Below are positions 12,620 to 19,322 of a DNA stretch of 64,000 bases, in pieces. The notes beneath the pieces were generated by a model, which saw nothing but the letters and a program-made list of their open reading frames with translations, was not told the DNA's origin and ran no database searches. The number at the start of each line of letters is the position of its first letter. The first letter of the stretch is position 1. A program made the position numbers and the translations under genes. Source of the DNA: a virus; the IMG/VR virus record IMGVR_UViG_3300028423_001161, positions 16,668 through 80,667 of that record; one strand, given 5' to 3'.

Positions 12620-12808
12620 CTACTCAGCGGGCATACCGTACATGCTGCTCACAAACTCGTCATGTTCGAGCTCTTCTGCACGCTTGATGTCACGGTATTT
12701 TCTCAGTTTGTTGAGCTGTTGCAGTGTGAGCACTGGTTTGCGTGTGTCTGATTCACTGCGTTGTGTGTATTGATCATGTTCTGGATCATAGAATTCTCTG
12801 AGTCTCAT
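12620..12808 (-). CDS. Small conserved head-operon protein between portal and core protein
   Basis: A 62-residue basic/acidic helical protein (MRLREFYDPEHDQYTQ at the start, LTLQQLNKLRKYRDIKRAEE in the middle). The start is ATG 12808, which overlaps the portal stop codon by one base and has AGGAG nine bases upstream; an in-frame TTG at 12811 is less likely. From memory, short proteins with a similar LTLxxLNKLRKxR core follow the portal gene in marine T4-like phages. A prohead assembly role is inferred from position only. Confidence 0.65.
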   Translation of the reverse strand: MRLREFYDPEHDQYTQRSESDTRKPVLTLQQLNKLRKYRDIKRAEELEHDEFVSSMYGMPAE

Positions 12809-14511
12809 CAAAGTTCTCCTGGTTCTTCGCCGCCTGGACTTTCAGCATCTCCTAGGTCGTCTGCTCCACCTAGGTCTTCTATGCCGCCAAGATCAGCTTC
12901 GCCGCTGATGTCGCCTTCCGGAGAAGGACGAATGCCCATGCTGCCTAGACCCGGCATGTCACTGTCGGGCATGGTGCTGGGTTTTTGCTGTTTGTTTTCT
13001 TTGCGCCACAGTTCTTCGTTTCTGCGAATCTCGTCCTCTGTGAGGCCTAGATACTTTTCTAGTTTGAACTGGTTGCTCATGAACGGAATTCCTTGCACTT
13101 GCCCAAACAGTTGTGCACGTTCTGTTTCCAGTTGTAGTTCACGATAACTGCTGAAGTTCATAGGCTTGTTGAATTCTATGTAGAAATTACCGCTGTCCAC
13201 TTCGATGCCTCGGTTTTTCAAAAACATCTTGAACTCATGATCCAGTTCTTCTTGCACTTGCCTCTGGAGGCGCTCAATGTATTTGGCAAAACGAAACTCT
13301 TGGATATAGGCAACTCCCACTTTGCCGTCATTGTACACAGCTGAGCCGTCCTCGGGTCCCGTGGGCAAGTAACTGCTGGGCACACGCAGACCGCGCATCA
13401 GGCGGTTGTTGAAGTATCTGAGATCATCAATTTGACCTAGGTTTTCACCGCCGGGCAGTGTGTCCACTTTGCTGCCGCGTCCGTCTGCTGTTTGTGCAAA
13501 GAAGTAATCTTCCAACATGCTCATGGGGTTATAGGCACTGTCAGCAATGGCATTGCCGTCTTTGTTTTTGTTGGGAATACGCTTTTGTTGTACTTCGTAT
13601 TTGACCTGCTCCAGATACTGACGTGCCTTGTGTGGGGGCATGTTGCCCACATCAATGAAAAACACACGGCGTTCCGGTGCGCGGTGCACACGATAGATGA
13701 TAATTGAATCTTCTAGTAGCTCTTTCTGCTTGAATAGTTTGAACACTGGTTCTAGGATGCTCACGCCAAATGGCCACACATTGTCCATGCCTTCTGTGAG
13801 GCTGATATGCACTATGTGTTCTGCAGGCACAGGAATACCCTGTTCAACACCGTCATCACCGCCAGTGATCCAGGTGCTGCCTTGTTTGGTGTTCACAGGA
13901 CTCATGATGCCTGTGATGCCTTGTCCTGCGCCAAAAGGTCTGCCGTGGATGTGAGACACCTCTGAAGCGACCTGCTCCTGCAGATTCAGTGAGAGCTCTT
14001 TGACGAAATAGGCTTCAATTTTTTTGCCTTCGCTTTCATTGACAATGACTTTTTCCACATTGGCAGGATCTACCCAGTACAGCTCGTAGGTTTCAGGATC
14101 TCTGATAAAAATCTGATCACCGTACTTGCAGGTGTTGCGAAAAATGCGAAATGCACGTTTGTGCAGCTTGTTGAGCTTGCACCACTGATACAGTGAACGC
14201 GAGAGAATTTTGCTTTCTGTGTCGGAAGGGTCTTCGGCATACTCTAGGTGAAAAGGCAAGCCTGTGCCTTCATCTTCCTGGGTGCCGAACTCAGCAATGG
14301 TATCAAGTGCAGCATTGATCTCTGAGTCACCGTCCATGTTGTCATACTGCTGATAGCGTATGAGTCTGTTGGGCGAACCTGCATATACCTCAGGCAACCA
14401 GCTGGCATAGCGGCTGCTGGATGCTCCTGCACCGTCCACAGATGATGTTCCTTGGAGATTCAGTGGCAAACCACTGTTGTCTACTGGTGAAAAATGCTTG
14501 CGCCAGCTCAT
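12808..14511 (-). CDS. gp20: Portal vertex protein gp20
   Basis: A 567-residue homologue of T4 gp20, the dodecameric portal that seeds the prohead and passes DNA. Diagnostic segments include RYQQYDNMDGDSEINAALDT (about residues 52-71), FRIFRNTCKYGDQIFIRDPE, VHRAPERRVFFIDVGNMPPH and LPGGENLGQIDDLRYFNNRL. The C-terminal 60 residues are rich in Gly, Glu and Pro and likely disordered. ATG 14511 has AGGAAT upstream, and a GATAAATA late box lies 28 bases before it. It heads the portal to capsid operon. Confidence 0.96.
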   Translation of the reverse strand: MSWRKHFSPVDNSGLPLNLQGTSSVDGAGASSSRYASWLPEVYAGSPNRLIRYQQYDNMDGDSEINAALDTIAEFGTQEDEGTGLPFHLEYAEDPSDTESKILSRSLYQWCKLNKLHKRAFRIFRNTCKYGDQIFIRDPETYELYWVDPANVEKVIVNESEGKKIEAYFVKELSLNLQEQVASEVSHIHGRPFGAGQGITGIMSPVNTKQGSTWITGGDDGVEQGIPVPAEHIVHISLTEGMDNVWPFGVSILEPVFKLFKQKELLEDSIIIYRVHRAPERRVFFIDVGNMPPHKARQYLEQVKYEVQQKRIPNKNKDGNAIADSAYNPMSMLEDYFFAQTADGRGSKVDTLPGGENLGQIDDLRYFNNRLMRGLRVPSSYLPTGPEDGSAVYNDGKVGVAYIQEFRFAKYIERLQRQVQEELDHEFKMFLKNRGIEVDSGNFYIEFNKPMNFSSYRELQLETERAQLFGQVQGIPFMSNQFKLEKYLGLTEDEIRRNEELWRKENKQQKPSTMPDSDMPGLGSMGIRPSPEGDISGEADLGGIEDLGGADDLGDAESPGGEEPGEL

Positions 14512-17620: not shown

Positions 17621-18472
17621 ATGACAAACACACACAATCCACTCAGTGGATACTTTCGTTCTCCCAAGCTGTACACTCGTATTCCCACCATGGGTAGATT
17701 CTATGACCCAGACACACTGGAAATGCCAGAAACCGGCGAGTTGCCAGTGTTTGCCATGACAGCCAAGGACGAGATGATCATGAAGAACCCAGATGCACTG
17801 CTCAACGGCGAAGCTGTGGCACAGGTTATCCAGAGCTGTGTGCCAGCAGTGAAAAAGCCCAGGTCACTGATCAGCAACGATGTGGACACACTGTTGATTG
17901 CAATACAGGGTGCTACACAAGGCGACGACATTGAAGTTTCTGGCAAGTGCCCAACATGTGGCGCTGAAGATCGTGGCACAGTGAGTGCAGAAGGTATCCT
18001 AGAAACCATGACCACGCTAGAAGACTCATATACCTTTGACTTGCCCAATGGGTTGACCATTGAAATTCGTCCGTTCACCTATGAAAGCACAGTGAAAGCA
18101 GGTGTAGCCAATTTCAAAACCACACGCAGTCTGCAAAGTCTCACCAACATAGAAGATGAAATGGAACAGATGCGTGCATTCAATGAAAACTTTCAGCAGA
18201 TTGCAGCCTTGAATTTTGATCTTGTGGTAGACAGTGTGGGCAGTATTTCAGGCACAGACAGTGAAGGCGAAAGATTCATTGTCACAGATCGCAACAGCAT
18301 CCGCGAGTTCATGGAGAACACTGAGAGCTCTGTGGGCAAGCAGGTAGAAGAACGCATCAAAGAAGTCAATGCTGTGGGTGTGAACAAAACTGTGCAGTTG
18401 AACTGCGAAGAGCATGGTGAGTTTGAGCATGAGGTAGCGTTTGATCCTGTAAATTTTTCCACAGCTTCCTAG
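17621..18472 (+). CDS. gp26: Baseplate hub/assembly protein gp26-like (zero frame)
   Basis: A 283-residue protein of the T4 baseplate gp26/gp51-like family. It has the hallmark run AMTAKDEMIMKNPDALLNGE (about residues 46-65), followed by VIQSCVP and LISNDVDTLLIAIQGATQG, and then LTIEIRPFTYE. In the middle is a CPTCG pair (about residues 110-114) that could bind a metal with later Cys/His residues (CEEHGEFEH near residue 267). The start ATG has AGGAG ten bases upstream. It stands alone on the plus strand between leftward blocks, with its own late box. Its last codons overlap a -1 frameshift signal leading into 18457-18693, so two products are predicted. Confidence 0.75.
   Translation: MTNTHNPLSGYFRSPKLYTRIPTMGRFYDPDTLEMPETGELPVFAMTAKDEMIMKNPDALLNGEAVAQVIQSCVPAVKKPRSLISNDVDTLLIAIQGATQGDDIEVSGKCPTCGAEDRGTVSAEGILETMTTLEDSYTFDLPNGLTIEIRPFTYESTVKAGVANFKTTRSLQSLTNIEDEMEQMRAFNENFQQIAALNFDLVVDSVGSISGTDSEGERFIVTDRNSIREFMENTESSVGKQVEERIKEVNAVGVNKTVQLNCEEHGEFEHEVAFDPVNFSTAS
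18451..18457 (+). promoter_or_regulatory. -1 ribosomal frameshift slippery heptamer A_AAT_TTT
   Basis: The heptamer is AAATTTT, placed in the zero frame as A AAT TTT, which fits the X XXY YYZ rule exactly. It lies 12 bases before the zero-frame stop codon (18470-18472). A GAGGT that could act as an internal Shine-Dalgarno stimulator lies about 15 bases upstream, and a small AGCT-tcct-AGCT hairpin follows six bases downstream. Confidence 0.6.
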
Positions 18473-18693
18473 CTCACGCAGACACAGAAGATATCATAAA
18501 CCTCCTAAATCGCCTGAGAAAGGAAGCAAGCAACCTAGAAAAAAGTCTTGTGGAAATTGCTGTTTACAGCAATGGCAGTATCTCATGGCAAGATGCCTAT
18601 ATGATGAGCACACAAGAACGAGAACTTGCAGTCAAGGCCATCAACAACTATCTCAAAATCAAAGCAGGCAAACCTGTCACTGAAGAGCTATAG
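18457..18693 (+). CDS. Frameshift extension of the gp26-like protein (no start codon of its own)
   Basis: The -1 frame is open from 18445 to the TAG at 18691-18693, encoding about 80 residues that look like real protein: a basic helix (NLLNRLRKEASNLEKSLVEI), then YSNGSISWQDAYMMSTQERE and a final helix. The first ATG comes only at the MMST, and there is no ATG, GTG or TTG near the open region's beginning, so independent initiation is unlikely. Slippage would give a 357-residue fusion (279 residues of gp26 plus 78). Short proteins with an SxxDAxxMS-type centre follow baseplate/tail chaperone genes in other myoviruses. Long-tailed phages commonly make paired tail-assembly chaperones by -1 frameshifting. 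The coding call is strong; the mechanism is inferred. Confidence 0.65.
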   Translation, partial: FHSFLAHADTEDIINLLNRLRKEASNLEKSLVEIAVYSNGSISWQDAYMMSTQERELAVKAINNYLKIKAGKPVTEEL

Positions 18694-19322
18694 TCATAGA
18701 TAACACGCACAGCTCTCATTTGTACACAACATCAACACAAACTACACAGGCCTAACGGCCTTTTCAAACTGCGTTCATTCATTTCGCTTTCGCTTCATTC
18801 ACTCACTGGTTTGAAAGAGTCTTCCTACTCAACAGAGTTAATCATACAATATAAGAGTATTCATGTAGATAGTGAGGTCATACGAAGCCTGTTCCTGGCA
18901 ACGTATGACTCCGAAACTTCATGTGAGTAGCTTCGGCCACAACGGAAGGCAGGTGTTTTCAGCACACTCCTCTGGGCTCTGACCTTACCCAACCTGCGTC
19001 GATTTTTAATGACACCTCGCTTCAGTGTGCCAATGGGAGTTTTGTGCATGAGATTTCAACTGTTAAGACTGTGCAAACGTTTCTATCAGTGGACAGACGT
19101 TTTAGCATCCTCTCGGGTAGTGCACAGAATCAGCTCATAGCAGAAGCCTTGGCCTACCACCTCATTTCAGAGTGGATTCAGCAACGGTATTAGATCCGGC
19201 CCGTCAACCTTGTGTGCTATGTGTGTGTTGCCTATGAAAAATGTCAGTTGTTGTTTAAGTGCCTAGAACTAAGCCATGTGAGATAGTATGATGTGCCCTG
19301 TGATATGCCATGCGTGTGATAG
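18694..19322. other. Non-coding region rich in inverted repeats, possible structured RNA
   Basis: About 630 bases without a convincing gene. Beyond the terminator there is an 8-bp inverted repeat TTTCAAAC/GTTTGAAA (18762-18769 with 18809-18816). Then come GTCATACG/CGTATGAC (18877-18884 with 18902-18909, with an inner GCC/GGC), CCGAA/TTCGG (18911-18915 with 18932-18936), GCAGGT/ACCTGC (18949-18954 with 18992-18997), AAACGT/ACGTTT (19075-19080 with 19097-19102) and several shorter stems. The density of stems over 18870-19110 suggests a folded RNA, but the strand is undecided. No tRNA, intron core or tmRNA signature was recognised. A 62-codon leftward open frame (18861-19049) has no ribosome site. 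Confidence 0.5.
18748..18764 (+). terminator. Intrinsic terminator after the gp26/frameshift gene
   Basis: AGGCC-TAAC-GGCCT followed by TTT, 55 bases beyond the frameshift-frame stop codon. The stem is short (5 bp) but GC-rich, and the position fits the end of this single-gene rightward transcript. Confidence 0.65.

Follow-up and report, generated by a model that had tools for sequence, protein, structure and literature searches.

The stretch of DNA analysed here, referred to below as the window, is 64,000 nucleotides long and is derived from an IMG/VR virus record. The gene of main interest within it encodes a 283 aa protein, which showed significant similarity to the Pfam family PF12322 (T4_baseplate, the family of gp26 and gp51), with an E value of 4.2e-13 and a score of 49.9 bits against a curated cut-off of 24.5, and to phrog_150, annotated as 'baseplate hub' (7.2e-17). 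This protein was matched in 65 phage records, 58 of them covering at least 80% of the query. The closest annotated relatives were jumbo myoviruses (e.g., Phosso, Atu_ph07, PA5oct, CBB, RaK2, and PBECO4), with no more than 38% identity, and a nucleotide search against phages gave no match. The AlphaFold2 model of the gp26-like part was ordered (mean pLDDT 83.6). In a viral fold library 58 matches were obtained at E≤0.001, the top one being 'baseplate hub assembly protein, T4-like', and the fold search of the PDB gave no solved structure at this threshold. In the PDB sequence search with E values up to 1, the gp26-like protein had four matches, the best of which was a designed protein (E=0.044), and T4 gp51 had none. 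The gp26-like gene is adjoined by a 986 aa tape-measure-like gene, which is divergent and not co-directional and whose assignment is tentative in view of a weak match; the gene at the same place in RaK2 is annotated as similar to a tape measure protein. The coordinates of these and other features are listed in Table 1.

Table 1. Features of the gp26-like locus (positions are those of the window).
Feature	Position	Strand	Basis or remark
T4-like portal (gp20) gene	12808..14511	-	PF07230, E=1.1e-108
Divergent tape-measure-like gene, 986 aa	14566..17526	-	Weak PHROG tail protein match, E=0.0027
gp26-like zero-frame gene, 283 aa; predicted short tail assembly chaperone ('G'-like)	17621..18472	+	PF12322, phrog_150
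Putative slippery heptamer A AAU UUU	18451..18457	+	X XXY YYZ register; codons GTA AAT TTT
-1 frame extension, 78 codons + stop; predicted long-chaperone domain ('T'-like)	18457..18693	+	
Spacer between slip site and stem, 6 nt	18458..18463	+	Pairing-opening probability
Proposed stimulatory stem, 5' arm GCTTCCT	18464..18470	+	Pairs with 18521-18527
Zero-frame stop TAG	18470..18472	+	12 bases 3' of heptamer
Proposed stimulatory stem, 3' arm AGGAAGC	18521..18527	+	

The region that follows the gene has features of its own. The sequence AGGCCTAACGGCCTTTTC at 18748–18765 (+ strand) was read by eye as a terminator-like hairpin with a T run, and it lies between the extension and a candidate structured non-coding RNA of about 360 nt (18865–19224, + strand) located directly 3' of the chaperone gene. 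This stretch is conserved in a subset of the relatives (10 aligned sequences, including the window), and in a wider alignment the length of most of its indels is not divisible by three (142 out of 187 gap runs, counting those at the ends). The consensus fold of the 10 sequences contains 73 pairs, 27 of them with compensatory changes. Its covariation score, calculated on the same alignment from which the fold was derived, was 0.302 vs. 0.140 in shuffles (reached by none of 500), and its pairing was 93.7% vs. 35–44% in slid controls; the number of further pair types was less decisive, as 16 of the 500 shuffles reached the observed number. An Rfam search of the stretch gave no match up to E=1. 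A model of one RNA domain found the window, which is its source, and contig L012, and in the other 44 of the 46 sources searched there was no match better than E=3.6. In CBB, about 790 nt without an annotated gene are present downstream of the chaperone gene (L045, 5052–5839), and they share 69–92% DNA identity with GAP32, BF, PBECO4, and Munch (contigs L055, L046, L047, and L054). This CBB-type stretch matched neither the window RNA domain model nor any family in Rfam, the latter search covering these contigs except L054.

The zero frame of the gp26-like gene, translated from the ATG at 17621, ends with VNFSTAS and a stop, and the sequence of positions 18450–18472 is T AAATTTT TCCACAGCTTCC TAG. 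The -1 frame, open from a point 25 nt 5' of this stop, closes at the TAG at 18691–18693, and its first ATG is codon 51 of 80, counting from the slip site. The -1 product is thus predicted to consist of 279 + 78 = 357 residues, as compared to 283 for the zero-frame product. All of these particulars, viz. the C-terminus, the heptamer in the X XXY YYZ register before the stop, the extent of the open frame, the lack of an early start codon in it and the sizes of the two products, are as the original prediction had described them.

A scan of viral contigs identified 40 relatives of this gene (the window clade), of which 39 include its 3' end; the remaining contig (L040) ends before the junction and was left out of the junction counts. 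In these counts identical junctions were counted once, and the keys used for this purpose vary by analysis (n=27, 28, or 32 for the clade and 49, 52, or 59 for the cyanophages). The site and the frame are conserved together, which is what the alignment of relatives suggested in the original prediction was meant to reveal: all 39 testable relatives retained AAATTTT at position -19 relative to the stop together with an open -1 frame, the extension reaching 72–74 codons past the stop. The heptamer A AAU UUU was identical in all 32 distinct clade junctions (window included), which are related and hence are not independent rows. An overlapping U UUU UUC, the form seen in most other relatives, was also present in 25 of these junctions and absent in seven, among them the window; the junction sequence is GTAAATTTTTTC in 25 of the 32 and GTAAATTTTTCC in seven. 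The zero-frame stop was TAG in 30 junctions and TAA in two. The invariance of the heptamer is not due to codon bias alone, because GTA, AAT, and TTT make up only 38, 47, and 75%, respectively, of their codon families in the same genes outside of the last 20 codons.

The same layout of slip site and -1 extension was observed in the cyanophages P-SSM2 and S-PM2, the vibriophage KVP40, Aeromonas phage Aeh1, and Desulfovibrio phage 7757. Of 14 annotated records, 13 (all but SP-15) have a T TTT TTC (T TTT TTT in XacN1) located 10–40 nt 5' of the zero-frame stop; translation in the -1 frame from this site gives FF and then a helical-looking domain. Relatives carrying the downstream protein as a separate gene with its own start codon had been named beforehand as the observation that would count against a frameshift. 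In the 13 records the small downstream ORF is listed as a separate gene (CBB, BF, PBECO4, Phosso, GAP32, Munch, and others), is annotated late, or lacks annotation (RaK2 and PA5oct); such genes are therefore found in the annotation, whereas in the sequences of 13 of the 14 records the -1 frame runs unbroken from the slip site into this ORF, which in SP-15 is in the +1 frame.

To put these observations in the context of the whole PF12322 family, 114 distinct junctions drawn from 166 sources (four sources had no gp26 match) were compared with a control set of 356 further distinct ORFs (150 aa or longer) from the same loci. An in-register heptamer together with a -1 extension of at least 40 codons was present in 107 of the 114 family junctions, which are related and do not represent independent trials, vs. 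one of the 356 control ORFs; a -1 extension of this length was found in 73 of the controls and an in-register heptamer near the stop in 17. Neither feature was present in five family junctions (SP-15, LIS04, GXN1, Mel-JY01, and LR756508), and an open -1 frame without the heptamer was seen in two, viz. LR756511 and T4 gp26, where the frame in question is that of gene 25. In the five phages lacking both features the extension is in the +1 (or -2) frame, and NCCCGATT[C/T] occurs near the stop in SP-15, LIS04, and GXN1; a +1 frameshift is possible in this group.

The extension evolves as a protein. In the -1 frame after the stop, substitutions at codon positions 1, 2, and 3 numbered 225, 113, and 539 in the window clade (23 pairs), 638, 381, and 1776 in the cyanophages and 201, 126, and 682 in the jumbo phages, and both this pattern and the alignment indicate that the out-of-frame C-terminal extension is conserved as a protein within the clade. 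The AlphaFold2 model of the extension (80 residues) was all-helical with a mean pLDDT of 87.6. The excess of third-position changes and this helical model agree with its earlier description as helical and coding-like.

An RNA stem downstream of the slip site is conserved in part, and it often starts 4–9 bases 3' of the site. In 27 distinct clade members the mean probability that a helix opens rose from 0.20 at slip+10 to 0.91 at slip+13. The peaks of about 0.9 were located at slip+13 to +15 in the clade, +16 to +17 in the cyanophages (with a rise from +11) and +14 to +16 in the jumbo phages, the controls being at about 0.5. Relative to dinucleotide shuffles, the median folding z of the downstream sequence was -2.37 in the clade (n=27), -2.76 in the cyanophages (n=59) and -0.66 in the jumbo phages (n=21), as compared to -0.09, -0.22, and -0.21, respectively, for one random 70-mer from each of the same genes. 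In the register of the window, the stem consists of 7–9 contiguous pairs in 12 of the 27 distinct members, six in two and 2–4 in 13, and two contigs of the last group (L023 and L037) form a longer helix elsewhere. Compensatory changes were noted at two stem pairs: among the 19 distinct members without a GKLK motif, positions 12/77 were A-U in five, G-C in six, G-U in one and unpaired in seven, and positions 18/71 were C-G in five, U-A in nine and unpaired in five. This covariation is of limited value as evidence, because both arms of the stem are coding. In the cyanophages helices of unrelated sequence are found at the same place, with at least seven pairs (G-U allowed) in 35 of 49 distinct junctions and fewer in 14, and the observed median pairing was reached by 3% of mononucleotide shuffles.

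Two other elements had been pointed out in the original prediction, a GAGGT upstream of the slip site and a small AGCT hairpin spanning the stop codon, and both were rejected as stimulators. The GAGGT is not a conserved element, because the median Shine-Dalgarno (SD)-like duplex energy upstream of the slip in the clade equals background (-2.35 vs. -2.1 in the control), and the AGCT....AGCT hairpin occurs in one of 28 distinct junctions; both of these clade figures include one row (L008) that was misplaced on a second AAATTTT at -34. In the jumbo phages the SD-like energy was weaker than background (-0.9 vs. -1.9), and in the cyanophages a GGAGG-like sequence is present upstream of the slip, with a median of -6.5 vs. 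-1.9. To judge from the sequences, the downstream stem is a better candidate for a stimulator than either the GAGGT or the AGCT hairpin.

This comparative evidence supports the proposal that a programmed -1 frameshift joins the gp26-like gene to the 78-residue extension, and we regard it as very probable that the gene gives rise to a pair of tail assembly chaperones, a short protein of 283 aa and a minority -1 frameshifted product of 357 aa. The slippage, its efficiency and the chaperone function are what we infer here, and the sequence of events may be envisaged as follows. Most ribosomes would stop at 18470 and produce the short chaperone, the equivalent of T4 gp26 or lambda gpG. A minority would slip by -1 on the A AAU UUU, probably aided by the RNA stem about 6 nt downstream, and pass the stop to produce the long chaperone with its helical C-terminal domain, the equivalent of T4 gp51 or lambda gpGT. 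Acting together, the short and long forms would load the tape measure protein, the likely gene for which is the divergent neighbor, and would bring in tube or hub subunits while the tail is being assembled; they would then be absent from the virion.

Three other explanations need to be considered. The extension could be a small gene of its own whose translation depends on re-initiation or coupling past the gp26 stop, an explanation with which its separate annotation in CBB, BF, PBECO4, Phosso, GAP32, Munch, and other phages is consistent, as is an ATG located five codons past the slip in 32 of the 59 distinct cyanophage rows. In Vibrio phage D531, moreover, the -1 extension is accompanied by TAATG at the junction and by no slip heptamer, and the extension may have a separate start in at least this one relative. 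However, within the clade the first ATG of the extension is at codon 34 or later in all 32 distinct rows (codon 50 or later in 30 of them), no position of a first ATG, GTG, or TTG is common to more than nine of the 32, and the earliest shared start candidate (GTG or TTG, index 15) would omit the conserved start of the domain. The extension of RaK2 lacks an early ATG and that of PA5oct any ATG, the cyanophage ATG is often inside the hairpin and is missing at that place in 27 of the 59 rows, and re-initiation would leave the invariant in-register heptamer without a reason; we thus consider a separate gene improbable. There is scarcely any likelihood that the heptamer and the open frame reflect chance or an assembly error (indel) in a single contig. 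Although the IMG/VR virus record containing the window (80,667 bases) is possibly a fragment, the same frame relation is found in 39 other contigs as well as in named phage genomes, which, short of a systematic error common to all of them, excludes a sequencing indel as the source of the frame break, and the coding-like substitutions in the extension also speak against it.

Lastly, the frameshift could be real and its product a structural baseplate or hub protein. The original prediction regarded the gene as a gp26-like baseplate gene; its likeness to gp26 is borne out by the PF12322 match, and the gene is best read as encoding a tail assembly chaperone rather than a structural baseplate protein. 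A structural role is suggested by the family names T4_baseplate and 'baseplate hub', by the annotation of the CBB gene as 'structural protein', and by some T4 genetics, noted in the relevant part of PMC3004832, that place gp26 in the hub. However, in the same part of that source both gp26 and gp51 are listed as hub assembly chaperones, and gp51, which bears a homologous extension, is described as needed for assembly, missing from the final particle and of unknown function (PMC3004832). In the PA5oct record an ESI-MS/MS note is attached to both neighbors of the gp26-like gene and not to the gene itself, and the available part of the CBB virion table contains CBB_247 and CBB_251 but not CBB_250, a designation that is also used for an 894 aa protein, making the numbering unsure; both of these observations are weak evidence. 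A structural product appears to us very improbable.

T4 contains two PF12322 proteins, gp26 (208 aa) and gp51 (249 aa), the latter being longer by about 50 residues, and in the Konradin record both of them are named 'tape measure protein assembly chaperone'. A hidden Markov model (HMM) of the extensions from cyanophages, KVP40, Aeh1, and 7757 matched the C-termini of gp51 from JSE (3.3e-10), KP15 (7.7e-10), and T4 (3.5e-6), and weakly that of Konradin (4.2e-3); its match to the window clade was weak. An HMM of the window-clade and jumbo phage extensions, the clade set of which again includes L008, found no gp51 match among the 9,833 six-frame segments covered by these searches. This second model matched the out-of-frame extensions of LR756508, Mel-JY01, and LIS04 at 6e-4 to 2.5e-3, and gave no match to those of SP-15 or GXN1. 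As far as such profile searches indicate, the homology to gp51 is direct for the cyanophage-type extensions only and not for the window clade. The eight gp26 genes from the two-gene arrangement (T4, Konradin, JSE, KP15, L166, L167, L168, and L170; four of these are T4 or close copies of it) contained no slip site that leads into a long extension: seven lack an in-register heptamer, and in KP15 the -1 frame following TTTAAAG closes 29 nt past the stop. Based upon the extension homology and this two-gene control, the short and the predicted long products would therefore correspond to T4 gp26 and gp51. A broader scenario, to which we assign an even chance, is that the chaperones of the T4 superfamily were ancestrally encoded by a single frameshifting gene 26, which has been held in place by a downstream stem whose position is conserved more than its sequence. 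In this scenario T4 gp26 and the essential gp51 would have arisen by duplication and in-frame fusion of one of the copies, the cyanophage and vibriophage 'truncated gp51' would be -1 extensions and not genes, and the SP-15-like branch, with its extension in the +1 (or -2) frame, would have undergone a change of shift direction within one orthologous gene.

The tail assembly chaperones of T4-like phages are reportedly the subject of a 2022 study by Vladimirov, Gautam, and Davidson, as judged from its title and the papers citing it. In the passages that cite this study, the short-chaperone (TAC-N) genes of T4-like phages are stated to contain known poly-T -1 signals (PMC12846349), and some T4-like phages are stated to dispense with frameshifting and to carry a short chaperone gene plus a longer fusion gene (PMC10885494). 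The remark in the original prediction that no frameshift had been described for T4 gene 26 thus seems not to hold (PMC12846349), and, going by these passages, frameshifted chaperone genes of T4-like phages are a kind already known. The literature searched, the scope of which left out most subscription papers including Vladimirov et al. (2022), contained no report of a frameshift in the window clade, and the gene is not marked as a frameshifted chaperone in the records examined. What is new here is the window clade, the A AAU UUU site, the stem and the reading of the cyanophage 'truncated gp51'. The latter protein was described in 2010, in the relevant part of PMC3037559, as a gp51 of cyanophages and marine vibriophages that lacks the first ~200 residues and shares its C-terminus with T4 gp51. 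A -1 extension provides a mechanism for this oddity; it would also mean that a conserved gene of cyanophages, vibriophages, and jumbo phages needs to be re-annotated, and it gives a testable model for the origin of the two chaperone genes of T4. Stems that keep their place as their sequences diverge would lend themselves well, as a natural series, to studies of bacterial -1 frameshifting.

Among the known systems, the frameshifted tail chaperones E and E+E' of P2 also involve a -1 shift near the end of the short gene and a minor long product, and lambda G/GT adjoins the tape measure gene. The lambda pair resembles the present gene in its arrangement, with a frameshift of -1 toward the 3' end of the short gene and a minor long product (as outlined in PMC5009743). 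The chaperone locus of the Pseudomonas phage Adele type (Vandenendeviridae/Andersonviridae) is similar in its layout, as the part of PMC12846349 dealing with it reports a -1 frame open through the locus in all alleles there, a poly-T motif near the end of the short gene and a downstream ORF that is usually annotated as hypothetical; its motif, however, is GTTTTT, in contrast to A AAU UUU here and U UUU UUC in most other relatives (PMC12846349). The 'truncated gp51' differs in that it is treated as a shortened gene in the passage concerned (PMC3037559), whereas in the sequences of P-SSM2, S-PM2, and KVP40 analysed here it is a -1 extension of gene 26. The T4 proteins gp26 and gp51 belong to the same family (PF12322), constitute a short and a long form, and the C-terminus of gp51 is homologous to the cyanophage -1 extensions; the difference is that in T4 the two forms are specified by two paralogous genes, whereas here they would be derived from one gene by a -1 shift.
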